Assembly: GCA_021373025.1 (NCBI GenBank)
Contig: JAJFTL010000025.1
Coordinates: 1-48,127, forward strand
DNA: 48,127 bases
Direction: 5' to 3'
Source of the DNA: a bacterium
GTDB taxonomy: Bacteria; Caldisericota; Caldisericia; Cryosericales; Cryosericaceae
Notes under the pieces: generated by a model
Database searches by the model: none
Told to the model about the DNA's origin: nothing
Seen by the model: only the letters and a program-made list of their open reading frames with translations
Shown here: positions 8,323 to 25,039 of the stretch, one piece after another
Position numbering within the stretch: the stretch's first letter is position 1
Layout: each line of letters starts with the position of its first letter
Translations under genes and position numbers: made by a program

Positions 8323-8350
8323 AGTGGCTTCTCCTCCCCGTCAATGTGTC

Positions 8351-9583
8351 TTAGTCGAACAGATCAAGGCCCTTGAACAGACCACTCAGGCCCTTGAAGG
8401 AACGCTTCTTCTTCTGCACCGTGGCACCATCACCACGGATACCGAGCTCGAGCAACCCGATCGCGGTCGAAAAACCTGGATTCTTGAATGAACTGAACAC
8501 AACATCATCCACGGTCGGCTGACCCACTCTGGCTCGCAGTCCCGTAATCTCAGAAAACTTCTCAGTGATGTGAGGCACCATTGCTGTCCCTCCTGTTAGC
8601 ACAAGTCCAGCAGGAAGCATGTTGTTATAGCTAGAATGAACCAGTTCAAGCTTAACAGCCTCTGCTATCTCCTCGATACGGGACGTTACAACATCACTGA
8701 TGTAGGATTTCGTCGTTGCAAGAACTCCGTCCCCTGATGCAGTAGAGTAGCTGACCTGCGTATCCTGAAAATCTTTCGCTCTGCTCGCATCAACCGAGCC
8801 ATAGGCAATCTTGAGTTCCTCGGCCACGTTCAGACTGGTTTTGAGCATCATTGCGAGGTCCATCGTTACGTGGCGCCCACCTATGGGCAGGACAGCAATA
8901 TAGCTCAGACTGCCTCCAGTGAAAACCGCTAGATCCGTGGTGTCTCCTCCGATATCTACGCATGCGACCCCGATTTCCTTCTCCTCTGATGAGAGGACGG
9001 CATCGGCCGACGCCAACCCCTCCACCACGAGCTTTTCCACCTTGAGACCCGATTCTGTCACACAACGGCGAAGGTTGTCGAGAATAGTCGATTGCCCTGT
9101 GACAATAAACGCTTCGAACTCCAGTCGGATGCCAGACATTCTGAGGGGATCCTTGATTCCTTCCTGTCCGTCAACAAGGTATTGTCGCGGAATCACGTGG
9201 ATGATCTCTTGATTGGGCCCCAGCAGAACGGCTCTCGCCGATTCCCATACACGGTCCACGTCATCCTTCTGGATCTCACGTCCCGGCCGAGATATGGCTA
9301 CAAGCCCACGATTCACCAGTCCAGTAATATGGGTACCACCCACGTTAACAATAACTGACGAAACAGTGTAGCTGCTCATACGTTCCGCTTCATCCCGCGC
9401 AGCCTGAATAGCCTGAGTAACTCCTTCCATGTCGACCACCACTCCGCGCTTCAGACTGTTGCATGGAGCTGTACCAACCCCCAGAATGGAATCCAGACCA
9501 TCCCCGACTGCAGAGGCGATCAACATCTTTACCCGAGTGCTGCCAATATCCAGTACGCTGACGATTCTTTCCTGACCCGCCAT
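8351..9583 (-). CDS. ftsA: Cell division protein FtsA
   Basis: Actin-fold ATPase that anchors FtsZ to the membrane. Its 410 residues carry the phosphate loops DIGSTRVK (12-19) and DIGGDTTD, the adenosine motif LTGGTAMVP, and a C-terminal amphipathic helix (about 394-410, with alternating Lys and Phe/Leu) that serves as the membrane anchor. Start ATG and the sbp stop overlap by one base (TAATG), so the two genes are coupled. Confidence 0.97.
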   Translation of the reverse strand: MAGQERIVSVLDIGSTRVKMLIASAVGDGLDSILGVGTAPCNSLKRGVVVDMEGVTQAIQAARDEAERMSSYTVSSVIVNVGGTHITGLVNRGLVAISRPGREIQKDDVDRVWESARAVLLGPNQEIIHVIPRQYLVDGQEGIKDPLRMSGIRLEFEAFIVTGQSTILDNLRRCVTESGLKVEKLVVEGLASADAVLSSEEKEIGVACVDIGGDTTDLAVFTGGSLSYIAVLPIGGRHVTMDLAMMLKTSLNVAEELKIAYGSVDASRAKDFQDTQVSYSTASGDGVLATTKSYISDVVTSRIEEIAEAVKLELVHSSYNNMLPAGLVLTGGTAMVPHITEKFSEITGLRARVGQPTVDDVVFSSFKNPGFSTAIGLLELGIRGDGATVQKKKRSFKGLSGLFKGLDLFD

Positions 9584-9924
9584 TATGCCTCCTTCTTCAA
9601 CAGAACCCGTCGGATGATTGCAATATTCTGATACATTCTGCTGCCAAACACGACGACTGCGGCAAGATAGAGGTCAATTCCCAGCTGGTCACCGAGATAT
9701 CCTAGCAAAGCAGCAACAAGGCTGTTGATGAGAAAACCGGAAAAGAAAACAGTCGCATCGAACGTGTCTTTCAGGTAGCCCTTGATACCACCAAGTATGG
9801 AGTCCATCCCGGCCAGCAGAGCCAACCCCACGTACTTGGAATAGATGGCAGGGATGTGCACGGGGCGAAGGATCCCGATCACAATGCCAAGTACAAGTCC
9901 ACAAACGGTAACAAAACCGACCAT
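9583..9924 (-). CDS. sbp: Small basic protein Sbp (DUF1290)
   Basis: A 113-residue membrane protein with about three to four hydrophobic segments. The family signature is visible: DSILGGIKGYL, a conserved FFSGFLINS, LGDQLGIDLYLAAVVVFGSRMYQN and IIRR. The family is found beside ftsA/ftsZ in Gram-positive-type division clusters; its exact job is unknown. A good GAGGAGG site lies about 12 bases before the ATG. Confidence 0.93.
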   Translation of the reverse strand: MVGFVTVCGLVLGIVIGILRPVHIPAIYSKYVGLALLAGMDSILGGIKGYLKDTFDATVFFSGFLINSLVAALLGYLGDQLGIDLYLAAVVVFGSRMYQNIAIIRRVLLKKEA

Positions 9925-9943
9925 ATCTGTTCGGATTCCTCCT

Positions 9944-10615
9944 CTACGTGCTGATGCCGATCTTGATCTTGCTGACTTTTTGAACTATAGCACTGATGCG
10001 CCTGAGGTTCAACAAATCGAGGACACCTCCTGGGATCTGGAGTCCCTTGGACATGTTCTCTGTATCTCCGATCGCATCGATTACCAGAGGCATTGTCGTT
10101 GTCTTCGCGCCCACATGGACATTCAGGCCTGCACGGTACACTGAGGTGGAATCCATGAGGCGTATGCCATTTACAGATATCACCTCTGCTCCAGAAGCCC
10201 AGAGGTCATTGAGCAGAAGAAGCAGGTCATCATCAGCAATCATGGAGGGCGAAGCACCTGAAGACTCCTCCTTGATCGTCACACGAACGCCCGGCCCGGA
10301 AAGCGCGACTTCACCTGTTCTTTCCTTCAAGACCTCTATTTCATGCTGGAGTTGAGCTACCTGAGCTGCTGTGTCGTTCGATGCCCGCGTGTACTGGCTG
10401 ACCTTCTGAGACAACCTTGACTCCTCCGTGAGAAGGTCCTGTTTTCGCTGTTGCAGGTCCTTGATCACTCGGATAAGGTCCTTAGGATCTTCATTCTGAT
10501 ACGTCTGCTTCATCTCCCGAACCACGCGTGCCTGTCCTGGCAACAGGGACCCAACAACTAAGCTGATCACAAACAAGATCAGAAGGCTCGACCTCCAGGC
10601 GGAAACCTTTGACAT
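9944..10615 (-). CDS. DUF881 division-cluster protein (second copy)
   Basis: A 223-residue bitopic membrane protein: short basic N-terminus, one membrane segment (about 8-27), a coiled-coil-like stretch, then the DUF881 domain. The domain shows the family pattern GPGVRVTI, a GAEVISVNGIRLM segment and the late DAIGD motif. I chose the ATG two bases after the upstream gene's stop (TGAGAATG); a longer frame overlaps that gene and adds nothing family-like. Role unknown; the domain is regularly linked to ftsQ, sbp and ftsA. Confidence 0.88.
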   Translation of the reverse strand: MSKVSAWRSSLLILFVISLVVGSLLPGQARVVREMKQTYQNEDPKDLIRVIKDLQQRKQDLLTEESRLSQKVSQYTRASNDTAAQVAQLQHEIEVLKERTGEVALSGPGVRVTIKEESSGASPSMIADDDLLLLLNDLWASGAEVISVNGIRLMDSTSVYRAGLNVHVGAKTTTMPLVIDAIGDTENMSKGLQIPGGVLDLLNLRRISAIVQKVSKIKIGIST

Positions 10616-10617
10616 TC

Positions 10618-11352
10618 TCACTGAGCCCCCTTGGCATAACGCCATTCCGAAGTCTTGAGGGATGCAGGGACTGAAAGAGATGCCTTCTTCTCAAGAGAGC
10701 AGACGATACCGAATTGATCCCGGTACATTTCCAGAACGCGGAAGAAAACATCCTGAGAGATACTGTCGCCAAGCATATCTTGGTCTCCTAGTGCTGTAAT
10801 CACATACGGAGGGGACATTCGGGTGGAGTTTACGAGGATGATGGGGCCAGCGCAGACGATTGGACTGTCTGCAAGGATACGCTGGTCATTGATTGAGATC
10901 GCCATAGCACCATACCTGCGCATGAGGTTCACAATGCTGCGAAGATATCCATCGTGAATGACAAAGTAGTTGGGGTCATCAGAAAGCGTAGGAGTGCGAA
11001 GGCTGTCACTCAGAGTTACAACGACTCCTGCTCCCATCATGTCGGTCTGCCCGGCCTTCGCTCGTAATTCCTGTACCCGCTGTGTAAGAGCGGCTACTTC
11101 GCCACTCGTGGCAGCATTCCTTGCTTCGAAGTCCACTACTTGATTCCGCAGGTCGAGAATTCGTTGAACTGAGGCAACATTTTCGGCCTCAAGGCCCTGC
11201 ATGATATCGACAAGCTCCACATTTTGAGCGGGAACAACGTATGCCTTGTTCACTGTCGGCTCGAACTGAACCGCCAAAAGGTAGCCAAATCCTGTTGCCG
11301 TGACAAACAACACGACGAGGAAGATGACGCTATTTCTTCGGTTGCCGTTCAT
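10618..11352 (-). CDS. DUF881 division-cluster protein (first copy)
   Basis: A 244-residue paralogue of the next gene: membrane segment at about 8-27, a coiled-coil-like region (about 45-95) and a DUF881 domain with GAGVVVTLSD, GAMAISINDQRI and ITALGD. The two copies differ clearly in sequence, so the duplication is not recent. The ATG shares ATGA with the ftsQ-like stop. The membrane topology places most of the protein outside the membrane; I infer a scaffold or divisome role from position only. Confidence 0.88.
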   Translation of the reverse strand: MNGNRRNSVIFLVVLFVTATGFGYLLAVQFEPTVNKAYVVPAQNVELVDIMQGLEAENVASVQRILDLRNQVVDFEARNAATSGEVAALTQRVQELRAKAGQTDMMGAGVVVTLSDSLRTPTLSDDPNYFVIHDGYLRSIVNLMRRYGAMAISINDQRILADSPIVCAGPIILVNSTRMSPPYVITALGDQDMLGDSISQDVFFRVLEMYRDQFGIVCSLEKKASLSVPASLKTSEWRYAKGAQ

Positions 11353-12023
11353 TTTCCACCTGGAATGACAGCCTGGCCATCAAACCGCAAATCGATGGTT
11401 ACGTTTTTGTCCTTGAACGCAGGCATGGCAAGAACTGCGACTCCTCTATCGATCTTCGAAATGCTATTTTTCCCGTCACCAAAGACCAGTGTCTGTCCAG
11501 TTTTCAAACGGGCAGAAAGTCCAGTCGAAGACGAGAGCGATAGTCGGGAGACGACCAGTTGGTCGTTGCGCCGCAGCAATTCGCAGCATAACTGAGCATA
11601 TTCTAGCGAGGTAGACAAGAAGGCTGGCAGTGCACGTGGAAACCCGTTTACATTGATCACCTTCCAAGATGCGCCAACCGAGGGCACTGCATAGGCAATC
11701 CCCTGATCCAGGAACACTGCAGCCATGATGTCTCCCTGCCTGATGACAAGATCAGGATCAGCGAGGCTTACCACAAGCGTCGCATTCCACGGACGCTCTC
11801 GCTGAATTGCAACGCCAGTAACTGGCAGCTCACGCAGGTACTCTGTGATCGAGGACTCGTTGAGAAGGAGGAGATGTGATGGAGAACGACTGGGCCAAAC
11901 CTGGTCGAGAACCGGCCTTTCCCAGGAGTTCGCCAGGATAGTAACGCGATCAGCCGGCACAGTGAACCACCAGACGCCGACAAGTACCAACAGGACCAAC
12001 GCCACCCGCCAGACAGATTTCAT
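11349..12023 (-). CDS. ftsQ: FtsQ/DivIB-like division protein
   Basis: A 224-residue bitopic protein: one membrane segment (about 5-22), then an extracytoplasmic part whose first section (about 27-95) fits a POTRA-like domain, ending in a TIDLRFDGQAV segment like the C-terminal DLR of FtsQ. Similarity is otherwise weak, so the name rests on topology, size and position between murB and the DUF881/ftsA genes. The ATG at 12023 has GGGG five bases upstream; a GTG two codons earlier is the alternative start. Confidence 0.75.
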   Translation of the reverse strand: MKSVWRVALVLLVLVGVWWFTVPADRVTILANSWERPVLDQVWPSRSPSHLLLLNESSITEYLRELPVTGVAIQRERPWNATLVVSLADPDLVIRQGDIMAAVFLDQGIAYAVPSVGASWKVINVNGFPRALPAFLSTSLEYAQLCCELLRRNDQLVVSRLSLSSSTGLSARLKTGQTLVFGDGKNSISKIDRGVAVLAMPAFKDKNVTIDLRFDGQAVIPGGK

Positions 12024-12062
12024 GTGCACCCCGACCCGGCTGCCATAGGCACGCGTTGCCTC

Positions 12063-12974
12063 CTATGAGAAGTCCCCGAGCAAGCGTATCTCGGGCGACA
12101 GCCGAATATTGAAACGAGCATAGACCCTGTGCACAACAACATCCATGAGCTGAACAACGTCCTGGGCTGTCGCTCCGCCCAGATTCACGATAAAGTTGGC
12201 ATGTTTCATGGACACCTGCGCCTGCCCCACTTGAAGCCCCTTGCATCCAGCTTCCTCAATCAGCTTTCCAGCAAACGTGGTCGGAGGGTTGCTGAAGATG
12301 CTACCCGCATTTGGGTGTTCCCATGACTGCTTGGCCCTCTTCTCTGATCGAATACGTTCGGCAGTCGACCGAATTGTCGCACCATCTCCGTGTTCCAGCT
12401 CAAATGCGGCGCCCAATATGACGGCTCCATCTTCCTGAAATTCGCTGTATCGGTAGTCAAAATCGATATCTTCATGCCTTCTTGTGGCGTACGTCAGATC
12501 ACGCTCAAGCACTTCCACGTAAGCAAGATGCGTGCTTATCGCCTGCGAGAATGAGCCGGCGTTCATGTAGATAGCTCCGCCAACCGTACCGGGAATACTC
12601 ACGAGATACTCGAGTCCGGCCAGGTCACGCTCCATTGCAAAGTTCAGCAGGACAGACAATGGGATCGGGGCACGCACCAACACCAGGCCATTTTCTAGCA
12701 CGGGACTGAGTGAGGTCTCAACCAGCCGGACCACCAAGCCCTGAATACCCCGGTCGGAGATAAGGACATTTGTACCATTGCCTAGAATTGTCGCAGGCAT
12801 CCCGAGAGACTTTGCGGCTCGCAGAGCACAGATCAGGTCCTCTTCTCCGCGTGGCATATAGAAATACTCGGCTGGGCCCCCAATGTGAAAAGACGTATAT
12901 GGCGCAAGCGGCTCCTTGACCAGAACTCGCTGGGCAACGCGCCCCCGGAATCTATCTAGAACCGAACTCGTCAT
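12063..12974 (-). CDS. murB: UDP-N-acetylenolpyruvoylglucosamine reductase
   Basis: FAD enzyme that reduces the enolpyruvyl group to lactyl, giving UDP-MurNAc. Its 303 residues contain the FAD-binding TSFHIGGPA, GNGTNVLIS (65-73) and SIPGTVGGAIYMNAG, the YRYSEF motif, the proton-donating Ser225 in GSIF, and a C-terminal Glu295 in SPEIRLLG. The length fits the short type II enzymes. The ATG shares ATGA with the murC stop. Confidence 0.97.
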   Translation of the reverse strand: MTSSVLDRFRGRVAQRVLVKEPLAPYTSFHIGGPAEYFYMPRGEEDLICALRAAKSLGMPATILGNGTNVLISDRGIQGLVVRLVETSLSPVLENGLVLVRAPIPLSVLLNFAMERDLAGLEYLVSIPGTVGGAIYMNAGSFSQAISTHLAYVEVLERDLTYATRRHEDIDFDYRYSEFQEDGAVILGAAFELEHGDGATIRSTAERIRSEKRAKQSWEHPNAGSIFSNPPTTFAGKLIEEAGCKGLQVGQAQVSMKHANFIVNLGGATAQDVVQLMDVVVHRVYARFNIRLSPEIRLLGDFS

Positions 12975-14443
12975 TCCTGATTCTCCTGTCCTCTCGTCTC
13001 TCCATGAGGTGAAACCAATTCAGATTCTACCGCATTGTCACTTTTGAGCAAGGCGCAGAAACGCGAAGCAAGCCTGTTGACGTCGCCTGGACCCATAAAC
13101 AAGAATACATCGTCGTTCGAAATGGATGTTCGCAAGTTTTCAAGCAATTTCTCGGGAGCCAACCTTGGTGAGAGTGCTCTGCCCACATTGTTCTGCAGGC
13201 ATTCGCGAAGTCTTGCATTCCATTCCTCAGGATGTTCGATCGTCTCTCCTGCCGGAAAGATGTCCAGGAGAATAACCCTCGAAGCACCTCTTACGGCCGC
13301 GCCATAATCCTCAAGGCACGTCCTGACACGAGAATAGCGATGGGGCTGAAGGATGAGTGTTACCGGCCTTCCAGGATACCGAACGGAAACAGCTTGCATC
13401 GTCGCTCTGATTTCCGTCGGATGGTCAGCGTGGTCGGTCAGGACAGTGGCGCCGTGGTATGTGGCCAGAACCTGCATCCTTCGCTCCATCCCAGGGAACG
13501 TCTCAAGCTCGTGCAATCCCTCTATAACAGGGACGCCTGCTCTTTCGCAGGCGAGAGCTGCCGCTACAGCATTCAGATAGCTCTTCTCATCTCCATGCGT
13601 CATGTGAAACGCAACATTCACATTGGGCGCGAGGACTCTCGCTGAATTGCTCATTGAATCATAGATAAGTTGTACGTCGTCTGACGTCTTCTCTCCATAG
13701 ACGATGTGTCGAGGTGCCTGCCGTGTGATGCGCGCTGAAGCCTCCTCATCACCGAAGCCTATGACGAGTCCTTCTCGTTCAGAACACTGCCGCGCAAATT
13801 GCCCGAAGGCATTGACAAGGTTGTCCATGCTGTCCCCATATGCGCCAAGGTGGTCCCTGTCAATATTCGTGAGAACGGCAACGTCCGGATGAAACCGCAA
13901 AAACGATCCATCAGACTCGTCGGTCTCCATCACCATGATTGGGCGTCCATCAATGGAGCGCCGCTGATTTCGCTGCACAGGAAACTCAATATCACCTCCC
14001 AGGATATGGCCACCCACATACATGGTTGGCGAAAAGCCCTGCTTCGCCAGCACATAGCCAATCATCCCTGATGTCGTCGTCTTGCCATGTGTTCCGGCCA
14101 CCGCCATCAGAAAGTAGTCTGCTGCAATTTCAGCCAGCAATTCAGCACGGTGGAGAACGTCTGCTCCTCTGCTCAGAGCGGCCATCATCACGACGTTGTC
14201 TCTGCGAATTGCTGACGAATATACAACGATCTCATCCCTCGACAGCTCACCGGCCGCTGCCTCTTCAGACATCACGGGAATTCCACGCAACAGAAGGCGG
14301 TCGGCTACGGGGCCGTCGCGAACAGCGTCCGATCCACGCACCTTCATTCCCATGTCCTGCAGCAGTGTCGCCAGAGAGCTCATGCCGGCACCGCAGATGC
14401 CGACCAGAAAGAAACAAGTTCCTTCACGCAGAGATCTATCCAT
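12971..14443 (-). CDS. murC: UDP-N-acetylmuramate--L-alanine ligase
   Basis: ATP-dependent ligase that starts the stem peptide with L-Ala. Its 490 residues show the N-terminal GICGAGMSSLA, the P-loop AGTHGKTTT (116-124) and TNIDRDHLGAYG. The usual DDYGHHPTEI motif is changed to TDHADHPTEI, a mild oddity in a conserved ligase motif. The ATG overlaps the murG stop by 8 bases. Confidence 0.97.
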   Translation of the reverse strand: MDRSLREGTCFFLVGICGAGMSSLATLLQDMGMKVRGSDAVRDGPVADRLLLRGIPVMSEEAAAGELSRDEIVVYSSAIRRDNVVMMAALSRGADVLHRAELLAEIAADYFLMAVAGTHGKTTTSGMIGYVLAKQGFSPTMYVGGHILGGDIEFPVQRNQRRSIDGRPIMVMETDESDGSFLRFHPDVAVLTNIDRDHLGAYGDSMDNLVNAFGQFARQCSEREGLVIGFGDEEASARITRQAPRHIVYGEKTSDDVQLIYDSMSNSARVLAPNVNVAFHMTHGDEKSYLNAVAAALACERAGVPVIEGLHELETFPGMERRMQVLATYHGATVLTDHADHPTEIRATMQAVSVRYPGRPVTLILQPHRYSRVRTCLEDYGAAVRGASRVILLDIFPAGETIEHPEEWNARLRECLQNNVGRALSPRLAPEKLLENLRTSISNDDVFLFMGPGDVNRLASRFCALLKSDNAVESELVSPHGETRGQENQE

Positions 14444-15503
14444 GAAGGCACTCCTGTTGGATGGTCTTTGCTATGGAATCGCCTGCATCAGTTGCAAAGA
14501 TACTCTCTGGGGGAAGCTGCCCGCTTCTCTCTTCAGCAAGCGCCTTCTCAAGGATCGAGAGGTATGCATTGAAATCGAGCACGTCCTGCTCTATCTCTAC
14601 GCCGAGATGCTGGCTCTGAAGATATGCTGCATTCGTTGACTGGTGATGTCCTACGGCGAACGGGTACGGAATGATCACAGCGTAGATTCCACCAACGGCA
14701 AGTTCCGTGAGAGCCAAGGCCCCCCCTCTGGTTACTGCTACCCGGGCATTGCAGTAAATGTCCTCCATTTGTTCGCTGTATGGGACAATAGAAGGAACAA
14801 TGTGTCGCAGCTTCATGCCAGAGACTTCATCGCGAATCCGAGCGTAATCATCTGTTCCAGTCACAGCTGTCACATGAAGAGACCGGCCCCGTTCATCCAG
14901 CTCATGAACGGTTCGTAGAAACAGGTTATTAATGAAGAGTGCCCCACCACTGCCACCGAGGAAGAGCAGCCCCGTTCGTTGTGAACTGTTTGTCCGACAG
15001 GCGGTAAGCGCCGCATAAAGCCGACGCCTTAGGGGATTGCCTGTCAAGATGTAGCGGGCTCCAGACCGGTTTTCGACGGGAAAGCCAAGAAATATTCGCT
15101 TTGCGGCATGAGCGAAGAGTCTGTTTGCCCTCCCCATGACTGTGTTTTGCTCAAGAAGGTAGATTGGGACTCCGGTCATCAAGGCAGCCAGAATGCCAGG
15201 CACTGACACGTATCCTCCCGTGCCGATAAAAGCATCAACGTGACTGGTAGACATAATTCGATGGGCAGCTCGTACACCGCTTGCAGTTGACCGTGTCAGA
15301 CGCCATATCGAGCGCGGAGAGTAGAGAAAGGGCGCGGATGAGACCGTCGAAACCGCTAGGCCATATGCCAGGAATACACGTTCTTCCATACTTTCGGATC
15401 GCGCCAGCATGGTCACACTTCCGCTGGTCAGCAAACGCTCCGCGATTGCCACTGCAGGATAGATGTGTCCCCCCGTTCCTCCCCCGGCAATCACATACTT
15501 CAT
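14436..15503 (-). CDS. murG: UDP-GlcNAc transferase MurG (lipid II synthesis)
   Basis: Peripheral membrane glycosyltransferase that adds GlcNAc to lipid I to make lipid II. At 355 residues it has the usual length. It shows GGGTGGHIYPA (7-17), FIGTGGYVS and the second GGSGGA motif in the C-terminal lobe. The ATG shares ATGA with the ftsW stop. Confidence 0.97.
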   Translation of the reverse strand: MKYVIAGGGTGGHIYPAVAIAERLLTSGSVTMLARSESMEERVFLAYGLAVSTVSSAPFLYSPRSIWRLTRSTASGVRAAHRIMSTSHVDAFIGTGGYVSVPGILAALMTGVPIYLLEQNTVMGRANRLFAHAAKRIFLGFPVENRSGARYILTGNPLRRRLYAALTACRTNSSQRTGLLFLGGSGGALFINNLFLRTVHELDERGRSLHVTAVTGTDDYARIRDEVSGMKLRHIVPSIVPYSEQMEDIYCNARVAVTRGGALALTELAVGGIYAVIIPYPFAVGHHQSTNAAYLQSQHLGVEIEQDVLDFNAYLSILEKALAEERSGQLPPESIFATDAGDSIAKTIQQECLHG

Positions 15504-16591
15504 GTCGAGGCCTCGGGGCTGCGAGCGATGGCTCCGACAATACCCAATGCTGCCATCTCAAATACAATGTGATTTCCTCCTTGGCTGAAGAACGGCAGCG
15601 GAACGCCTGTGGTTGGCAGAACTCCTGCAACAACGCCAATGTTGACAAGCGCCTGGACAGTCAGAAATACGCCCAGGCTCATTGTATATATGCGAGCGAA
15701 GGGTTCTGTCGACCGAGAAGCGATTCGGAACAGCTCAACCATGATCCAAAGGTAGATAGCGAGAATTGCGGTCACGCCAATCAGTCCAAATTCTTCAGCG
15801 AATATCGCGAACACGAAGTCATTCTCCTGAGCTGGAAAGTGAATGAATTTCTGAACACTGCGCATGAAACCACGACCAAACACCCCTCCCCTCGCAACTG
15901 CAAACATTGAATTGACAAGCTGATATGCCACGCCTTTTGCCTTATCTGCTGCGAGTGGATTGATGAACGACGTCATTCTGACTTTCCATGACGACTTTAA
16001 GCTCACGGCAACAGCAGCAAGTGCGCCAGCTGCCATCACGCGGCTCAGCCAGTACGAGAATGGGGCACCGACCACGAGAAGGATACCGAACGAGGATCCA
16101 GCAATCACGAAGGCTGTCCCAAAATCCGGTTCGATTGCGACCAGCCCGACGAATCCAAGTACAAAGACAAGAAAAGTCGTGTAGTAGCGATGATCGTACC
16201 TGTTGAGGTACTTTCCACTGAACAGCTTGGCTGCAAGAAGTGGTATAGCCATAACAGCTGCCTGAGAGGGCTGGACGCCGATCGAAGCTGTTCCCAGCCA
16301 ACGACTCGAACCGTTGACACTTCTCCCCACTCCGGGAATGAGAACGACGACGAGCAGTAACCCGAGCCCATAGGTGAGCAATTCTGCAATATCGGCCCAC
16401 CGCATATACTTGAACCGCGAGCAGACCCAGTACGCCGCAACCCCAACAACCACAATCAGCGCCTGCTTCACAACACTCCACGTGACAGTCACGAACTGGC
16501 CGCGCGCAGCACTCAGACTGGCCGTAATGCTGTAGTTCTGTAAGATGCCGAGACAGAGCAGTATGGCGACAAGGGCTAGTATGCGCCTCAC
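15500..16591 (-). CDS. ftsW: FtsW/RodA-type SEDS peptidoglycan polymerase
   Basis: Multi-pass SEDS-family glycosyltransferase that polymerises lipid II at the septum. Its 363 residues contain about ten hydrophobic segments and the SEDS motifs GRSVNGSSRWL, FAIFAEEFG and GVLPTTGVPLPFFSQGG. It is called FtsW because it sits between murD and murG, the classic ftsW slot. The start is GTG, sharing GTGA with the murD stop. Confidence 0.95.
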   Translation of the reverse strand: MRRILALVAILLCLGILQNYSITASLSAARGQFVTVTWSVVKQALIVVVGVAAYWVCSRFKYMRWADIAELLTYGLGLLLVVVLIPGVGRSVNGSSRWLGTASIGVQPSQAAVMAIPLLAAKLFSGKYLNRYDHRYYTTFLVFVLGFVGLVAIEPDFGTAFVIAGSSFGILLVVGAPFSYWLSRVMAAGALAAVAVSLKSSWKVRMTSFINPLAADKAKGVAYQLVNSMFAVARGGVFGRGFMRSVQKFIHFPAQENDFVFAIFAEEFGLIGVTAILAIYLWIMVELFRIASRSTEPFARIYTMSLGVFLTVQALVNIGVVAGVLPTTGVPLPFFSQGGNHIVFEMAALGIVGAIARSPEAST

Positions 16592-17964
16592 GGTATGGTA
16601 GCGCCTAGACTGTGCACGATCGCCCTGAAGCGGTCTCCACGCTCCTCAAAGTCCCTGAACATGTCGAAGCTGGCACATGCAGGTGACAGGAGCAGGGTGC
16701 CACCCCCCTTTAAGAGCGAAATCCCCTGGCTTACCCCCTCCTCAAGGGATTCTGCGTGCACAATTCTCGTCATGCCGGCCTGCAGGAGCGACGCAGCAAT
16801 GGCTGGACCAGTAGTACCCATAACAATGGCACTCTTCAAGTTTGTGTCCCCAGCCAGATATTCTGCCATCCCATCGAACGACACACCTTTGGAACTGCCG
16901 CCCAGGATCACGACGTATGGTCCAGACATTGCGCGGGAGGCCGTTATTACGGACTCTGGAGTAGTGGCTTTTGAATCATTGACGCATGCAACTCCAGCCA
17001 CCGTACCAACATATTCCAACCGGTGAGGAAGCCCATTGAACCGCTTGATGCCAGCCTGAATAGCCTCTGGTGCAACACCATACACAAATGCTGCCAGCGC
17101 CGCACTCATGGCGTTTGCAATGTTATGGCGTCCGGGAATACGTACGTCCTCCTCCCTGAAGAGTTCCACAAGATGCTCTCCGTCGTGAAACAGGATAACG
17201 CCACCATTGACAGATACGCCAGAGTAGGTCCCATCCTCTAACCCGAAATAGAAGGCACGCGGAACCAGCGCCGAACCAAGTTCCCTCAATGTGTGATCGT
17301 CCCAGTTGAGAACAACGGCATCTTTCTCGTCCATATTTGCAAAGATGCGCTGTTTCGTTTCAAAATAGCGTTTCATGGTTCCATACCGGTCAAGATGATT
17401 TGGCACGAGGTTTGAAAAAACAGCGACACGCGGATGAAACGTGTGAATCGTCTCCAGCTGAAAACAGCTGACCTCAAGCACGGCGAGGCTAGCAGCAGGA
17501 TGTTCGACGAGAAGCTGAGACACGGGCGTCCCGAGGTTCCCGCCGATTACCACATCAGGATACTGCTGCGCGACCATCTCGCCCAACAAGGCTGTTGTTG
17601 TACTCTTCCCATTGCTTCCGGTCACCGCCAGAACCGCGAGATCGGCATAGGCAGCAATCTCCATCTCACCGACGACAAACTTTCCCAACCGACCAGCGGC
17701 AACAAGAATAGCGGCATCCAGCGGTACGCCAGGCGAGACGACGACGGCATCATAACCAGTCATGATACCGACTGTATTGCCGCCAAACTCGTAAGGAATA
17801 CCGGCCTGTTCGAGCAACTGAACGGACGATACAAATCGCTGATCGTCGCCGCTGTTACGGTGCTCGGACACAAAAACCCGTACACCATGCCTTTGCAGGT
17901 AAAGAGCGGCGAACAGCCCACTTGGCAGAGCTCCGACAATGAACGCCGATTCAAAGGGGATCAC
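16588..17964 (-). CDS. murD: UDP-N-acetylmuramoylalanine--D-glutamate ligase
   Basis: Adds D-Glu (made by MurI in the same run) to UDP-MurNAc-L-Ala. Its 458 residues show the P-loop TGSNGKSTTT (115-124), a conserved NHLDRYG after the central strand, and NDSKATTPES in the C-terminal part. The start is GTG, three bases after the mraY stop. Confidence 0.97.
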   Translation of the reverse strand: MIPFESAFIVGALPSGLFAALYLQRHGVRVFVSEHRNSGDDQRFVSSVQLLEQAGIPYEFGGNTVGIMTGYDAVVVSPGVPLDAAILVAAGRLGKFVVGEMEIAAYADLAVLAVTGSNGKSTTTALLGEMVAQQYPDVVIGGNLGTPVSQLLVEHPAASLAVLEVSCFQLETIHTFHPRVAVFSNLVPNHLDRYGTMKRYFETKQRIFANMDEKDAVVLNWDDHTLRELGSALVPRAFYFGLEDGTYSGVSVNGGVILFHDGEHLVELFREEDVRIPGRHNIANAMSAALAAFVYGVAPEAIQAGIKRFNGLPHRLEYVGTVAGVACVNDSKATTPESVITASRAMSGPYVVILGGSSKGVSFDGMAEYLAGDTNLKSAIVMGTTGPAIAASLLQAGMTRIVHAESLEEGVSQGISLLKGGGTLLLSPACASFDMFRDFEERGDRFRAIVHSLGATIP

Positions 17965-17967
17965 TGA

Positions 17968-18948
17968 TTACCTCCACGTCATCGTCAGCGCACCCGCAAT
18001 GACGAATAGAATACTTACAACGAAGAATCGGTCAACGATTTTCGGTTCTTCCCATCCGAGCTTCTCGAAGTGATGATGAATAGGTGCCATCAGAAATACC
18101 CTCTTGGTGCGGCCCGACGCCCTGAACACGAGTACTTGAATCATGACACTCAGGGCCTCCACCAGAAACAGACCGCCCAGAAGCATCGACGAAAGAAGAT
18201 TCCCTGAGGCAAACACCCATGCAATAAAGATGGAACCAAGTGCCAGAGATCCCGTATCTCCCATGAAGACAGATGCTCTTGTTCCATTGAACCAAAGAAA
18301 CGACGTAGCAAACGCGGCTGCTGCCACTGGCAGGATCCCGGCCAACCCCGAGGGATGAACCACTGATGCGGCAGCGGCCACAGCAAAAACGGGAAGGCTT
18401 GCCTTGGCCAGCAAGCCATCGAGGCCATCGGTCAAGTTGAAAGCGTTGACCATACCCACCGCATAGATCAAAGAGATGCTATAGAATGCCCACCCACCAA
18501 GCAGAACAACTCCGCTCGCCAGTCGAATGTTCCAGGCAGGGCCGGGCCGCGCCAAACCAAAGAACAGACCCGCTGCGATCGTCTGGATGAGCAGTTTCTG
18601 GTAGCCGAGAAGGCCATCATTTCTCTGCTTGATTTCCTTCATCCAGTCATCCAGCAAGCCAGAAAGAAGGTTCACTCCTACGAAAACAAGAGCCGCCGTG
18701 TCCACCGTGGTCCAACCCTGTCCTTTCCTCACAACCAGATAGGCCGCCACAGCCACTCCTATGTCCAATACCAGCATCAACCCGCCACCCGTCGGCGTCC
18801 CTGCCTTGGACTTATGCGAGGCTGGACCCTCGTCACGAATCAACTGAGTAAAGTGCTTTCTCCGCAGCCATGAAATAAGTGCTGGAAACAGGATCAGATC
18901 GAGAAGAGTTAGAGCAAGAGCAAACAGCAGACTGGCTTGAATGCTCAT
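17968..18948 (-). CDS. mraY: Phospho-MurNAc-pentapeptide translocase MraY
   Basis: Integral membrane enzyme that transfers phospho-MurNAc-pentapeptide to undecaprenyl phosphate, giving lipid I. With the ATG at 18948 it has 326 residues. Motifs: HKSKAGTPTGGG (45-56; most homologues have PTMGG), the catalytic NLTDGLDGL, FMGDTGSLALG and the cytoplasmic PIHHHFE. The ATG shares ATGA with the murE stop; a longer frame reaching 18984 lies inside murE and is not needed. murF would normally sit just upstream but is absent. Confidence 0.95.
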   Translation of the reverse strand: MSIQASLLFALALTLLDLILFPALISWLRRKHFTQLIRDEGPASHKSKAGTPTGGGLMLVLDIGVAVAAYLVVRKGQGWTTVDTAALVFVGVNLLSGLLDDWMKEIKQRNDGLLGYQKLLIQTIAAGLFFGLARPGPAWNIRLASGVVLLGGWAFYSISLIYAVGMVNAFNLTDGLDGLLAKASLPVFAVAAAASVVHPSGLAGILPVAAAAFATSFLWFNGTRASVFMGDTGSLALGSIFIAWVFASGNLLSSMLLGGLFLVEALSVMIQVLVFRASGRTKRVFLMAPIHHHFEKLGWEEPKIVDRFFVVSILFVIAGALTMTWR

Positions 18949-20507
18949 CTCGGTGACGCCTCGCCGGTCTTGAGGCCTGCGCACTCAGTATAGCCTAAGA
19001 GGCGCAGCGCGAGTCGCACTTCCTCACGATCGTCAAAGGGGACATCCTCATGTTCGTAATACATGACTCCTTCGTGCCCACGCCCGAGAACAAGCACCAT
19101 ATCTCCCGGCTTGGCCGCACCTATTGCACTGCGAATCGCCTGTCTCCTGTCCTCGATGACAGTGAAACGATCGGTCAGAAACCCGGCTTCTATGTCTCGC
19201 ACCGCAATCGACGCCTCTTCACGACGAGGATCTTCGACCGTTACATACGACCATCGGCAAGCTTCCTCAGCAAGACGTGCCATAATTGGACGCTTCCTTC
19301 GATCATCAGCCCCAACTGCCCCAAAAACGGTAAGCAGATCCCCCGCCACATAAGGTCGAACTGCATTGAACAAAGCCGTGAACTCTTCCGGCGTATGAGC
19401 ATAATCTACAACCACTTCAAATGGCTGCCCGCAGTCGATGCGCTCATACCGCCCCGGGATATACAAAGGGAGGGCGAGCGAATGAATGGCCTCCTCCAAA
19501 CTTCTTGCCGGCTCAATCGCCTGAAAGGCACCGACTGCCGCCAGGCAATTGGATGCCTGAAACGCCGGCCCGACCGACAGCTCCACGTCGAAAGGGTCCC
19601 CGTTGTCAACCGACATTCGAAAGGTCGTCTTGCCCATGGTTGATACAACATGTTCTCCTCGGAGGCTCGCCGGTCGGCTGAGGGAAAACGTCCGTACCAG
19701 CGAACCCTTGGCTGCTTCCTCGAACTGATGGAACGCAGGGTCGTCGGCATTGAGCACGGCGATTGAGCCCTGCTCTAACGAAGCAAACAGGCTCAGCTTG
19801 GCTGCCAGGTACGCATCCATGGTGTGATGGTATCCGAGGTGGTCTTCAGAGAAATTCGTGAAAACCGCACAATCGAAGTGCATGCCATGAACTCTGCCGA
19901 ATGCCAGTGCAAATGAAGAGACCTCGATTACCGCGATCTTTGCCCTCGCCTTCAAAGCCCGATCCAGATACCAGTTGAGAGCAAAAGCCTCGGGGGTAGT
20001 GGCAGGCAGAGCATCTGGAGCAAAGACTTCTCCATCGGGCATGAAATAGCCTGTCGTCCCAATCATGACAGAAGGAATGTTCAGCGCCTGTAACATATGC
20101 CGGAGCATGTATGCTGTGCTGGTCTTGCCACTTGTCCCGGTAATACCGACCATCTTGAGATGACGTGCAGGGAAGTTGAAGAAGGCCTGCGATGCAAGAC
20201 TGAGAAATTGGCGTGCGTTTGGAACAACGATTACTGGCACGCTCTGCACTTCTGGATGTTCACGTTCGGCTACAATGCAGGACGCCCCGGCACGAATGGC
20301 GTTCGGGATGAATGAAGCCCCGTCCACGCTCGTTCCCGGGATGGCCACGAACATCGTGTCAGGACCACACTGGCGAGAATCCGGCGTAATCAGCTCAATC
20401 AACACTTGTGGAAATATACGAGGAGACGATGCTGTGGAATTCCAGGACTCTGGAGGTAGCATATGGAGAAGCTCTAAGAGCTCGCGTTTTTCAACAGTGA
20501 ATTTCAT
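18945..20507 (-). CDS. murE: UDP-MurNAc-tripeptide synthetase MurE
   Basis: ATP-dependent ligase that adds the third stem-peptide residue. Its 520 residues show the N-terminal DSRQCGPDTMFVA and the P-loop TGTSGKTST (123-131). The selectivity motif reads EDPR at 425-428, where meso-DAP enzymes have DNPR; the arginine is kept but the asparagine is replaced. GRGHE is also kept. The added diamino acid (DAP, lysine or other) therefore stays open. The ATG shares ATGA with the ftsI stop. Confidence 0.95.
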   Translation of the reverse strand: MKFTVEKRELLELLHMLPPESWNSTASSPRIFPQVLIELITPDSRQCGPDTMFVAIPGTSVDGASFIPNAIRAGASCIVAEREHPEVQSVPVIVVPNARQFLSLASQAFFNFPARHLKMVGITGTSGKTSTAYMLRHMLQALNIPSVMIGTTGYFMPDGEVFAPDALPATTPEAFALNWYLDRALKARAKIAVIEVSSFALAFGRVHGMHFDCAVFTNFSEDHLGYHHTMDAYLAAKLSLFASLEQGSIAVLNADDPAFHQFEEAAKGSLVRTFSLSRPASLRGEHVVSTMGKTTFRMSVDNGDPFDVELSVGPAFQASNCLAAVGAFQAIEPARSLEEAIHSLALPLYIPGRYERIDCGQPFEVVVDYAHTPEEFTALFNAVRPYVAGDLLTVFGAVGADDRRKRPIMARLAEEACRWSYVTVEDPRREEASIAVRDIEAGFLTDRFTVIEDRRQAIRSAIGAAKPGDMVLVLGRGHEGVMYYEHEDVPFDDREEVRLALRLLGYTECAGLKTGEASPR

Positions 20508-22216
20508 GGTTTTAACCTCAGATACTGTATCAGGTTGAGCGCAATCTTCTTGAAGGTTGGTCCTGCCACCTGAAAGGAGGTCCGCGCACCTTTGGTGGTT
20601 TCATGAATACTGAGGAACACAACCACCCTGGGGTCGTTCGCCGTCAGAATACCAGCGAAGCTGTACACATACGTTCCATTAGACAAATAACCGCCCCCAG
20701 GAGCGGCAACCTGGGCCGTTCCTGTTTTCCCTGCTACCTGATATCCGGGAATATATGCGCTGAAAACCCCGATGTCTTTTTGGACCACTCCATGCAGGCC
20801 TTCGAGAACCTGCTTGGCTGTCTCGGGCTTGAACACCTGACCGATGACCCCCGGCGTGTCTGTCTTCTGACTTGTACCAGAAGCATCGACAATGCGGTCA
20901 ACAATGTAGGGCCTCTGCATGAGGCCTCCATTAGCGATCGTAGCGTAAAAGTTTGCCATCTGGATCGCCGTCACTGCTACTCCCTGGCCAAACCCCATCG
21001 TCGGCAGAGTTGTCTTTGACCAAAGAGACGGTGGAAGGAGAATTCCAGACTCTTCTCCGGGGAGGTCGATACCCGTCCGCTTCCCAAAACCATACCGAGT
21101 AAGGCAATCATAAAAAGGCTTGGCCCCGATCTTCATGCTCAGCTGCGCAAATCCCACGTTGGACGAGTGCTGGAGCATAGCATACAGGTTCATGTTTCCA
21201 TAGGCATAGTCATTTACTTCGTGAATAACTGTTCCATAGACCTTCAGCGTACCGCCGCTGTAGAACGTACTTTGAAGATCGATCGTACCCGTTTCAAGGC
21301 CCGCAACAGATGTTGCAGCCTTGAAGACTGAACCTGGCTCATAGTTGGCGCTGACCACCTTCTCCGAGAGTGAACTCATGCCAGCGTCCTGCCAGTGCGC
21401 TGGGTCCACACTTGGAACATCAACCATTGCCAGAACGGCGTCGGTCTTCGGGTCAAGGATGGTGCATGTGGCACGCTTGCCAGCATAGGTTTTCAATGTC
21501 TCCATCAGTGCCTGCTGCGCGAAATACTGAATGTTTGAGTCAATCGTAAGAACAAGATTCTTTCCCGGAATAGGATCCTCCACATCCTCCATTATCGGTG
21601 GCTCGCCAGGGTTGGATCCTGAAACGCGATAGGTCTGCTTTCCATCCGTGCCCCGAAGTTCCTTGTCGTATTGAAACTCAATGCCTGAGAGCCCCTGATT
21701 GTCGGACCCCGTCACGCCAACCACCGATGAGGTCAACGAGCCCAGTGGATATACGCGGCGGTACCCCTTATCCAAGACAATCCCTGGTACATTAAGCCGG
21801 GACAACTGGCTATATTCCGTTTCCCCTACCTGCTTTTTAAGATAAATGAACGTTGACGAAGCACTACGTATCTGCTTCTCCAGCTGAGCAGCTGAAACAT
21901 TGATGATGGGGGCAACGCTTGTGGCGGTCAGGTGAGCATCCTTGACCTCTTTCATATACAGACCCAGAGACCACGTTGCTATATCCTCTGCCAGCACACG
22001 CCCTGTAGAATCGAGAATCATTCCTCGCTTTGCCTTAATAGGAATGGAATCAGTGTCCAGCTGCTGATTAGCCAAATCAACCAGATCGGCTCTGGCAATA
22101 ACCTGCAGATAGACAAACCTGGATTCGATTCCTAACACTGCAACCAGGAATGCTACAAAAACAACAACAAGACGCCGCCTGAACATATCGTTAAAGGATG
22201 CGACGCCTTTCTTCAT
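20504..22216 (-). CDS. ftsI: Septal penicillin-binding protein (FtsI/PBP2-like transpeptidase)
   Basis: Membrane-anchored D,D-transpeptidase that crosslinks peptidoglycan with FtsW. Its 570 residues have one membrane segment (about 15-32), a dimerisation domain and the transpeptidase domain with the active-site SVFK (Ser296), SSN (351-353) and KTGT (497-500). No PASTA domain follows, so it is more FtsI-like than SpoVD- or PBP2x-like with PASTA repeats. It starts with ATG, 33 bases after the ftsL-like gene. Confidence 0.95.
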   Translation of the reverse strand: MKKGVASFNDMFRRRLVVVFVAFLVAVLGIESRFVYLQVIARADLVDLANQQLDTDSIPIKAKRGMILDSTGRVLAEDIATWSLGLYMKEVKDAHLTATSVAPIINVSAAQLEKQIRSASSTFIYLKKQVGETEYSQLSRLNVPGIVLDKGYRRVYPLGSLTSSVVGVTGSDNQGLSGIEFQYDKELRGTDGKQTYRVSGSNPGEPPIMEDVEDPIPGKNLVLTIDSNIQYFAQQALMETLKTYAGKRATCTILDPKTDAVLAMVDVPSVDPAHWQDAGMSSLSEKVVSANYEPGSVFKAATSVAGLETGTIDLQSTFYSGGTLKVYGTVIHEVNDYAYGNMNLYAMLQHSSNVGFAQLSMKIGAKPFYDCLTRYGFGKRTGIDLPGEESGILLPPSLWSKTTLPTMGFGQGVAVTAIQMANFYATIANGGLMQRPYIVDRIVDASGTSQKTDTPGVIGQVFKPETAKQVLEGLHGVVQKDIGVFSAYIPGYQVAGKTGTAQVAAPGGGYLSNGTYVYSFAGILTANDPRVVVFLSIHETTKGARTSFQVAGPTFKKIALNLIQYLRLKP

Positions 22217-22249
22217 TGACTCTACGAAGCCTTAAGGCAAGGCTTCCCG

Positions 22250-22594
22250 CTAATGGAGACTACCCAGTGTGCCAATCACCACCGCATTATTGGATCTCAT
22301 GCCAATCGCACCTGCCGATGATCTGATTCGATCGGGTGAAGTAAGCTTGATATCGCGTTCAAGAAGCGACTCCTGAAGCTGAAGCTGAGCTTGAATGGCC
22401 GTTCGGTTCAGTTCCACCTGATGTTGGAGAAACAGCGTCGTGTTATATACATAGCCATACGCACAAAGCAGACCCACGATAGTAACGCTCAGCACGGCAT
22501 ACCGACGGGCGGTCTTTCTCGACGCCGCCGAAACACGAACGGTAGCTGCAGGATGTCGAACTGTTGTATAATTGCCCCGAACGGCAATGCTCAT
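22250..22594 (-). CDS. ftsL: FtsL-like bitopic division protein
   Basis: A 114-residue protein with a basic cytoplasmic N-terminus, one membrane segment (about 32-50), a short heptad-like stretch, and the SPDRIRSSAGAIGMR segment recalling the end of the FtsL zipper. Sequence similarity is low, as usual for FtsL. The name rests on topology, size and the slot between rsmH and ftsI. The ATG lies two bases after the rsmH stop. Confidence 0.8.
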   Translation of the reverse strand: MSIAVRGNYTTVRHPAATVRVSAASRKTARRYAVLSVTIVGLLCAYGYVYNTTLFLQHQVELNRTAIQAQLQLQESLLERDIKLTSPDRIRSSAGAIGMRSNNAVVIGTLGSLH

Positions 22595-22596
22595 GG

Positions 22597-23499
22597 CTAT
22601 ACCCTTTCAAGGACCCGCAATTTGGCACTGCGAGAACGTCTATTCTCTGCAATCTCAGAATCGCTAGGACGAATGACTTTCTTGTTTACCAGACGAAATC
22701 CTGGCTCTCCCGAGGCCGGTTTCTCGCAGAGAGCCAGGTAGCTCCTCTTAACAATTCTATCTTCGAGCGAATGATAACTGATGACCAAGAGTCTTCCTTT
22801 GGGATTCAAGAACGATGCTGCGGACTTGAGACCACGCTCGAGGGCATTGAGTTCATCGTTAACATAGATACGTAGCGCCTGGAACGACTTGGTAGCAGGA
22901 TGTATGCGGGCGTGCCTGGTTGGGAAGACAGCGGCTACTGTCTCCGCCAATTCGCTCGTCGTTTCGATCTGTGATCGTTGCCGGCGACGCACAATCGCCC
23001 GAGCGACCTGGCGCGACCTCCCCTCTTCGCCGTACTTCCACAGGATGTCGGCGATGTCTTCTTCTGGAAACGAGTTCACGATATCCCTGGCAGAGACCTT
23101 AAGATTATCGTCCAACCTCATGTCCAACGGTTGGTCATGACTGAACGAAAACCCCTTTCCTGTGCCCGTGAGTTGCTCTGAAGAAAAACCCAGGTCCATG
23201 AGGATCCCGTCGAACCCTATGTCTGGATAATCCTTCAACAACCGCGTCATGTCCCGAAAGTTTCCGCGGATAATAACCTTGCGGGCGGCAGTTTCCTTTA
23301 GCCGCTCGCGGGCAACGGCAAGAACGTCTGAATCCACATCCAGCATGAAAAGCGTCCCTTCGCTTGAAAGTTGGCGCCCAACTTCGTACGCGTGTCCACC
23401 TTCCCCTGTCGTGCAATCCAGATAGGTTCCGTCTGGTTTGATCTGCAGGTATGTCGTGACCTCGTCCAGGAGGACGGGGGTGTGTACAAACTCACTCAT
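22597..23499 (-). CDS. rsmH: 16S rRNA (cytosine-1402-N4)-methyltransferase RsmH
   Basis: SAM-dependent methyltransferase that modifies C1402 of 16S rRNA near the ribosomal P site. Its 300 residues begin with HTPVLLDEV and the SAM-binding DCTTGEGGHA (28-37), and later show GFSSEQL, the DMRLD motif and the conserved SYHSLEDRIVK. The ATG shares ATGA with the mraZ stop, the classic mraZ-rsmH pairing. Confidence 0.97.
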   Translation of the reverse strand: MSEFVHTPVLLDEVTTYLQIKPDGTYLDCTTGEGGHAYEVGRQLSSEGTLFMLDVDSDVLAVARERLKETAARKVIIRGNFRDMTRLLKDYPDIGFDGILMDLGFSSEQLTGTGKGFSFSHDQPLDMRLDDNLKVSARDIVNSFPEEDIADILWKYGEEGRSRQVARAIVRRRQRSQIETTSELAETVAAVFPTRHARIHPATKSFQALRIYVNDELNALERGLKSAASFLNPKGRLLVISYHSLEDRIVKRSYLALCEKPASGEPGFRLVNKKVIRPSDSEIAENRRSRSAKLRVLERV

Positions 23500-23939
23500 C
23501 TGGCTTGTAAAGCTCCGATATTCTGCTCAAACACTTTCTCCGCTTTAGCCCGATAACTATCCCAGATATGAACGTCCCAGATCTCCAGGTGTGTCAATGC
23601 ACCAGCAAATACGACCTCTTTGTCAAGTGAAGCATACTCGCGCAAATGCTGAGGTATCGAAATACGACCAATCTTGTCGAGTTCGACCGTTGCAGCTCCG
23701 CTGAAAAGAATGCGGACAAAAGCTCGATTGTCGGATGAGACAGGTATGAGGTCACCATAGAACCGTTCAATGATCGAGGTCCACACTCTGTCATCGAACA
23801 GGTAAAGGCATCGATCCATGCCCTTGGTGAGAACGTAAGGAGAACCAGTGTCACAGCGGTAACGGGCGGGGAACATTGTTCGTCCCTTGTCGTCCATCGA
23901 ATAACGGTATTCACCGATGAAACTATTCTCCTTGTTCAT
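23496..23939 (-). CDS. mraZ: Transcriptional regulator MraZ
   Basis: DNA-binding regulator of the division and cell-wall cluster with a double AbrB-like fold. With the ATG at 23939 it has 147 residues and two copies of the family motif: DDKGRTMFPARYR near 16-28 and DKIGRISIPQHLR in the second half. An upstream GTG frame would run through the promoter and its TGG boxes, so it is rejected. No Shine-Dalgarno sequence precedes the ATG, and the predicted transcript start coincides with it. It likely represses its own operon. Confidence 0.95.
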   Translation of the reverse strand: MNKENSFIGEYRYSMDDKGRTMFPARYRCDTGSPYVLTKGMDRCLYLFDDRVWTSIIERFYGDLIPVSSDNRAFVRILFSGAATVELDKIGRISIPQHLREYASLDKEVVFAGALTHLEIWDVHIWDSYRAKAEKVFEQNIGALQAR

Positions 23940-23945
23940 GGCGTT

Positions 23946-23979
23946 AGTATACCACAATTTCCCATTTTTTACCACAATT
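23946..23979 (-). promoter_or_regulatory. mraZ promoter with three MraZ-type boxes
   Basis: On the minus strand the -10 element TATACT occupies 23946-23951. Three TGG cores follow upstream at exactly 10-bp steps (23952-23954, 23962-23964, 23972-23974); the outer two lie in identical AATTGTGGTA repeats and the middle one reads ATGGGA. Known MraZ operators are TGGG-type direct repeats with 10-bp periodicity, so this is a strong candidate for autoregulation. No clear -35 element is visible; the boxes occupy that space. The predicted transcript start, seven bases from the -10, is the A of the mraZ ATG. Confidence 0.75.
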
Positions 23980-24004: not shown

Positions 24005-25039
24005 CTAGACTATTGTTCCTCCTCCAAGAATGCACTGGTCATGGTAGAAGACCACGGCTTGACCCGGGGTAACGGCAAATATCGCTTCCTCGAGAGAGAT
24101 ACAGACCTTGTCCTCTGCAATTCGATGAATAGTGGCTCGCACGGGTTTCGAACGGTATCGGGCCACAACATCCGCGGAAAACGATGACATTGCACTGGTG
24201 GGAATATGCTGCCATTTCAGATCGGTAGCTTCGAAAAAAGTCCTCAGACAGTCGCTGCGCTGTCCGAGGACCAGCTCGTTTGTTTCCTGCCGTTTCATCA
24301 CCACATACAGCCGTGATGAAGCACTGACGCCAAGACCAGACCGTTGACCGATCGTGTATGAAGCAAGGCCATGATGCCTCCCGACTTTGGTGCCGTCGAG
24401 GAGAACAATGTCACCGGGCAGATCAGACAGATGACGGCTAACCTCGTCATGAATGGAACCCTCTACAAAACACAAGTCTTGACTCTCGTGCCGTGCCAGC
24501 AGGTCTGCACTGAACCACTTCGGGGCCAGAGCCACCACTTCGCTCTTCAGGCGGCCGGCAAGAGGAAACAGGATCCGGTTTCGCTCTTCGGCCGAAAGCC
24601 TGTAGAGGAAGTACGACTGGTCTTTTGTCCTGTCGACGCCGCGACAGATCTGGACTCCATCGGCGCTGCGGACAATACCTGCGTAATGGCCACTTGCAAT
24701 GAGATCCACGTGAAGTTCTTCTGCCACATTGAGCAGACCCCGCCACTTCACGCTCTCGTTGCAGAAAATGCAGGGGTTTGGCGTTGTTCCGCGCTTCATC
24801 GCCTCCCAGAACGGCTCGATGACCTGACAACGAAAGACATCTTGCATGTCGACTTCATGCCAGGCAATCCCGAGCTGCTCACACTGAGCCTTCGCCCGTC
24901 GCACCGATCCCACGTCGCAGCAGGAACTGGTCTGGGAAAAATGGAGCGTCACACCAATGACTTGTTCCCCCAGCTCTTTAAGCAAAGCCGCAGAAACTGC
25001 AGAATCGACACCCCCGCTCATCCCGACGATAATGCTCAT
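24005..25039 (-). CDS. mnmA: tRNA-specific 2-thiouridylase MnmA
   Basis: ATP-dependent enzyme that thiolates U34 of the Lys, Glu and Gln tRNAs. Its 344 residues contain the PP-loop SGGVDS (8-13), the catalytic cysteine Cys90 in TPNPCIFCN and the second cysteine Cys190 in SQDLC, plus SGHYA. No clear Shine-Dalgarno sequence is seen before the ATG. It lies 98 bases downstream of ricT and 65 bases upstream of mraZ, so readthrough from here into the division run is possible. Confidence 0.96.
   Translation of the reverse strand: MSIIVGMSGGVDSAVSAALLKELGEQVIGVTLHFSQTSSCCDVGSVRRAKAQCEQLGIAWHEVDMQDVFRCQVIEPFWEAMKRGTTPNPCIFCNESVKWRGLLNVAEELHVDLIASGHYAGIVRSADGVQICRGVDRTKDQSYFLYRLSAEERNRILFPLAGRLKSEVVALAPKWFSADLLARHESQDLCFVEGSIHDEVSRHLSDLPGDIVLLDGTKVGRHHGLASYTIGQRSGLGVSASSRLYVVMKRQETNELVLGQRSDCLRTFFEATDLKWQHIPTSAMSSFSADVVARYRSKPVRATIHRIAEDKVCISLEEAIFAVTPGQAVVFYHDQCILGGGTIV

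Follow-up and report, generated by a model that had tools for sequence, protein, structure and literature searches.

MraZ represses its own operon by way of short direct repeats upstream of mraZ, as has been established in Escherichia coli and mycoplasmas (PMC8475190), and such boxes are widespread in bacteria. In E. coli (NC_000913.3), three GTGG boxes spaced exactly 10 bp apart precede mraZ, and MraZ exerts autorepression (Eraso et al. 2014, as far as it is outlined in PMC8475190); as the promoter is read here, these boxes are positioned at least ~8 bp downstream of an apparent TAAACT -10 hexamer with a TTGACA -35 element, in a leader that bears a Shine-Dalgarno (SD) sequence. A site downstream of the -10 element, as in E. 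coli, is also described for Burkholderia cenocepacia, where MraZ binds four GTG repeats in PmraBc (7 nt with 3-nt spacers, i.e., a 10-bp period) that extend over the transcription start (PMC7761207), and a G-rich region in Staphylococcus aureus is likewise found downstream of PmraZ (PMC11796246). In Mollicutes, direct repeats of the site AAAGTG[T/G] are located in the mraZ promoter, with a single site in the genome of M. genitalium (Fisunov et al. 2016, in so far as it is summarized in PMC8475190). In the described cases that we compared, the boxes are placed at or behind the transcription start.

Leaderless genes have been surveyed by means of a TANNNT element adjacent to the ORF (Zheng et al. 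2011, PMC3160421; Deinococcus-Thermus, PMC12340547), and in the portions of these surveys considered here, such genes lack an SD and have a -10 element that precedes the start codon by about one discriminator length, with phyla rich in leaderless genes as the subject. In those portions, mraZ was not met as a leaderless gene, and we found no paper in the open literature that ties MraZ to leaderless mRNA in a relevant way. Here, we describe an mraZ locus whose boxes belong to a familiar type of element but whose box position, together with a predicted leaderless start, represents an unusual variant conserved in related bacteria; the sequence of this variant is well supported, and its function is what we infer from it.

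Locus and MraZ protein

The window, namely the whole stretch of 48,127 nucleotides that was analysed, is contig 49 in a 1.6-Mb genome of Candidatus Cryosericum (Caldisericota/Cryosericota), a permafrost-type bacterium. The mraZ coding sequence (23496–23939, minus strand; 147 amino acids and a stop codon) is the first gene of a division and cell wall cluster, which continues in the same direction (7213–23499) with rsmH, an ORF of 114 amino acids, an ftsI-type PBP gene, murE, mraY, murD, ftsW, murG, murC, murB and further genes, among which are ftsA and ftsZ; the 114-amino acid ORF occupies the position of ftsL and gave no family match. The mraZ product matches the profile TIGR00242 at 110.6 bits (cut-off, 98.35) and contains two matches to PF02381, with both repeat halves present, and each half has a DxxGR motif that is aligned to E. 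coli MraZ. The identity with E. coli MraZ is 32%, and the nearest solved structures are those of MraZ. Upstream of mraZ, the co-directional mnmA gene ends at 24005, 65 bp before mraZ, and no terminator-like site was seen in the interval between the two genes. A terminator-like hairpin with 13 pairs and a T run was noticed at 24272–24239 (minus strand), within the mnmA frame (24005–25039).

Box array upstream of mraZ

On the minus strand, three TGG direct repeats with the 10-bp period that characterizes MraZ boxes are arranged upstream of a TATACT hexamer. All three are where the first-pass annotation had put them, its positions (23972, 23962 and 23952) being the last G of each TGG core. When the A of the mraZ ATG is taken as +1, box 1 (GTGG, 23972–23975; core, 23974–23972) begins at around -36, box 2 (ATGG in the window, 23962–23965; core, 23964–23962) at around -26, and box 3 (GTGG, 23952–23955; core, 23954–23952) at around -16. 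The outer two boxes were also correctly described as lying in identical repeats: AATTGTGGTA occurs at 23979–23970, enclosing box 1, and again at 23959–23950. In 886 kb of the genome searched on both strands, AATTGTGGTA is present exactly twice, both copies being those at mraZ, and the pattern GTGG-N6-RTGG-N6-GTGGTA has one match in the whole 1.6-Mb genome versus ~0.02 expected from word frequencies. The box array upstream of mraZ is thus not a product of chance. The number and spacing of the boxes are those of E. coli, the GTG repeats and their period are shared with Burkholderia, and direct repeats in the mraZ promoter are also common to the Mollicutes, in which, as far as the site is given in PMC8475190, the flanking letters are different. 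Indeed, the statement that MraZ of E. coli and mycoplasmas binds direct repeats of this kind agrees with the published sites (PMC7761207, PMC8475190).

An extra GTGG (23995–23992, minus strand) precedes box 1 by exactly 20 bp, in phase with the array, and it might be a weak distal box; the corresponding site is TTGG in most other Cryosericum and is lost (TTGA) in two of them.

Conservation in Caldisericota

The strict array was searched for in 54 genomes of Caldisericota, 22 of which have an MraZ match (including G002, where the gene is a fragment) and 32 of which have no detected mraZ. Among the former, 21 possess the strict array, once per genome and always directly upstream of mraZ; the 22nd, G053, has ATGG as its first box in place of the GTGG in the other 21, so that relaxing one base brings the array to 22 of 22. 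Only one of the 32 genomes without detected mraZ contains the strict array, and that match is not at an mraZ gene. The co-occurrence of array and mraZ (21/22 versus 1/32) corresponds to a Fisher P of 9e-13, in which the 54 genomes are related and hence not independent samples. Some of the mraZ-negative genomes are incomplete (G006, G008 and G011 at 61–80%), and the missing mraZ may therefore be an assembly gap in these cases. The first-pass annotation had staked its reading on the TGG periodicity being kept in relatives, and the reading survived, as the 10-bp array stands at mraZ in all of the mraZ-bearing genomes.

When the sequences of 12 Cryosericum genomes are aligned, the region from the AATT of box 1 through the ATG is almost invariant, and codons 2–6 as well as most of the preceding intergenic DNA are variable. 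The middle box is ATGG only in the genome of the window and GTGG in the 11 other Cryosericum. As a separate observation on the class to which the window belongs, mraZ was undetected in all 29 genomes of four families (f3–f6), and the array is also absent there except for one unrelated match.

Extended -10 promoter fused to box 3

The order on the minus strand is box 3, TATACT (23951–23946), the 6 nt AACGCC and the ATG (23939–23937). In all of the 22 mraZ-bearing genomes, a TAnnnT hexamer directly follows box 3, and the TGG of box 3 is therefore read as the TGn of an extended -10 element (TGG-TATACT, 23954–23946), with the TGn adjoining the hexamer and no -35 element. Indeed, no -35 element at the normal spacing of 16–18 bp was found upstream of TAnnnT in any of these genomes; the best matches amount to 2–3 of six bases in 22/22, and ~11% of random sites score better. 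The sole TTG is that of TTGTGG (23977–23972), 20 bp from the -10 hexamer. The boxes had been proposed to take the place of a -35 element, which is right in effect and needs to be rephrased in one respect: more exactly, it is box 3 that supplies the TGn. In contrast to E. coli, the boxes in Cryosericum are upstream of and inside the extended -10 element, with no -35 element and no predicted leader, and in contrast to Burkholderia, there are three repeats instead of four and none is downstream of the -10 element.

The overlap between box and -10 element could be partly incidental, given that the box consensus, GTGGTA, is in itself similar to TGnTA. The unit of box and extended -10 element is also kept in the sister class (f7: G049–G053; loci L053–L057 and L161), where the start codon is ~35 nt downstream behind an SD sequence, GGGAGAG; the promoter call is hence independent of the nearness of the ATG. 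In this sister class, a further GTGG (replaced by ATGG in one genome out of five) is present just after the -10 element in the 10-bp register.

Predicted leaderless start

From the spacing to the -10 element, the A of the mraZ ATG (A at 23939; ATG, 23937..23939, minus strand) is the predicted transcription start, and no SD sequence was recognized before 23939. The gap between the -10 hexamer and the ATG is 6 nt in 12/12 Cryosericum and 7 nt in 5/5 genomes of the sister family, and the ATG is invariant in 12/12 Cryosericum. These gaps were compared with genome-wide profiles, in which hexamers with at least five of six matches to TATAAT were counted upstream of in-frame ATGs at the 5' ends of ORFs in ~886 kb of Cryosericum DNA. 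The TATAAT-like hexamers peaked at a gap of 6 nt (17 compared with an average of 3.1 across the other gaps; P = 4e-8), as did the extended -10 elements (9 versus 1.4; P = 2e-5), and in the sister-family genome G019, the peak of the extended -10 elements was at a gap of 7 nt (7 versus 1.7; P = 0.002). When ORFs were filtered in another way in a second count on the same Cryosericum DNA, there were 26 ATG ORFs of at least 70 amino acids at gap 6 versus ~7 at neighbouring gaps, with TGn in 8 of the 26 genes versus 0–2 at other gaps. An earlier profile with TANNNT alone on 314 kb had no gap peak, which appeared with ~886 kb, the stricter hexamer and starts at ORF 5' ends. The gap at mraZ coincides with the genome-wide peak of each lineage, so that mraZ conforms to the spacing typical of the lineage in which it occurs.

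SD usage was judged by the peak upstream of ATGs, with the 16S rRNA not being assembled in this genome. A strong SD peak was found at gaps of 4–10 nt in Cryosericum, and most genes in both Cryosericum and G019 have SD sites; leaderless genes would therefore be a small minority class. This is distinct from the phyla rich in leaderless genes that are treated in the surveyed portions of PMC3160421 and PMC12340547, and so is an extended -10 element merged with an operator. Given the lineage-specific peaks, a leaderless mraZ mRNA is well supported as a prediction of the 5' end, and the leaderless start suggested in the first-pass annotation holds up to that extent. Elsewhere in the Cryosericum DNA, further genes that are probably leaderless, with a -10 element exactly 6 nt before the ATG, are seen at, for example, L106:6298 (minus strand), L121:15379 (minus), L102:8559 (minus) and L130:12693 (plus); judged by eye from the starts of the proteins, such genes include those for HrcA-like, RlmH-like, hypoxanthine phosphoribosyltransferase-like and methylglyoxal synthase-like proteins.

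Proposed mechanism and alternatives

We consider it quite probable that this site is the operator through which MraZ controls its own gene and the division and cell wall cluster, merged with the core promoter and followed by a leaderless start, with binding, repression and the 5' end being deduced from the DNA. Spaced by one helical turn, the three (G/A)TGG boxes would span from about -38 to -12 and thereby cover the -35 region, the spacer and the extended -10 element. When MraZ is scarce, sigma factor and RNA polymerase would use the extended -10 element and start at the A of the mraZ ATG, and the resulting leaderless mRNA would be translated without an SD sequence. When MraZ is abundant, an MraZ oligomer on the boxes would compete with sigma for the base pairs of box 3 and block the polymerase, so that mraZ and the genes behind it would be shut off in a negative feedback.

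Alternatively, the operator might be real but the main mraZ transcript might originate upstream, either by read-through from mnmA or at a further promoter, which would make the mRNA leadered, with an SD-less ATG, and the TATACT incidental. Because mnmA ends only 65 bp away in the same direction and no terminator-like site is seen in between, some of the mraZ mRNA could indeed be read-through, and partial conservation is also seen in a short segment behind the mnmA stop codon. An upstream origin of the main transcript is, however, unlikely in our estimate: the TAnnnT after box 3 is kept in every mraZ-bearing genome even where its distance to the start codon is different, the gap at mraZ matches the lineage-specific genome-wide peak, and a longer mRNA would equally lack an SD sequence before the ATG.

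As a further alternative, the true mraZ start might be elsewhere, namely at an upstream in-frame GTG (23975) or at a codon past AAGGAG in codons 3–4, in which case the mRNA would not be leaderless. The reading frame is open upstream to that GTG, AAGGAG (23933–23928, minus strand) is a perfect SD-like word, and the homology to MraZ starts only at F7. The upstream GTG, however, belongs to box 1 and has no SD sequence; after AAGGAG, no ATG, GTG or TTG appears before codon 15, which is inside the conserved domain; AAGGAG is replaced by AACGGG in G012; and the ATG is invariant among the 12 Cryosericum, whereas codons 2–6 vary. A start at either place is accordingly regarded as very improbable, and the ATG at 23939 is retained as the start. 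AAGGAG is situated in a six-residue N-terminal extension of MraZ that is missing from the sister family. We do not claim this word as a relic SD sequence of a lost downstream start; it stands only 3 nt from where the canonical start would be, is not kept in G012 and may merely encode Lys-Glu.

It is highly improbable that the repeats serve a role apart from MraZ, for example as a G-quadruplex like that reported downstream of PmraZ in S. aureus (PMC11796246) or as the site of another regulator. The boxes are G-tracts, but an intramolecular G-quadruplex is rejected because it needs four of these and only three short ones are present here. Moreover, the array is restricted to genomes with mraZ and, within them, to the mraZ promoter, and the MraZ sites published for E. 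coli, B. subtilis, mycoplasmas and Burkholderia consist of GTG repeats at a 10-bp period (PMC7761207, PMC8475190).

Variation of the box/promoter unit

Returning to the merged operator and promoter, we are inclined, by a modest degree, to a broader view of the mraZ-bearing Caldisericota, in which one sequence would serve as both MraZ box and extended -10 element, with repressor and sigma reading the same GG. With this unit held fixed, mraZ would have changed between two forms in the phylum: in the sister class, it is SD-led and leadered and another box stands just behind the -10 element, and in two families of the window's class, it would be leaderless and this additional box is lacking. A division regulator would then be made by leaderless translation in an otherwise SD-using genome. 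The position of a box within the predicted sigma contact suggests a simple competition mechanism, and the MraZ operator appears able to shift relative to the start and yet to keep its period. The phylum provides a natural series (an SD leader with a further box, and no leader with three boxes at a gap of 6 or 7 nt), which could be used to ask how a conserved cell division promoter changes its mode of translation.

Outside this phylum, TGG repeats near a 10-bp period were also noticed upstream of a TAnnTTTG box at three loci of Bacteroidales (L045–L047), ~90 bp before mraZ, and the box position hence varies between phyla. At L045, one of the repeats, TTTGG, is ~21 nt before TAnnTTTG, where the -33 TTTG is expected, and this is possibly another fusion of box and promoter.
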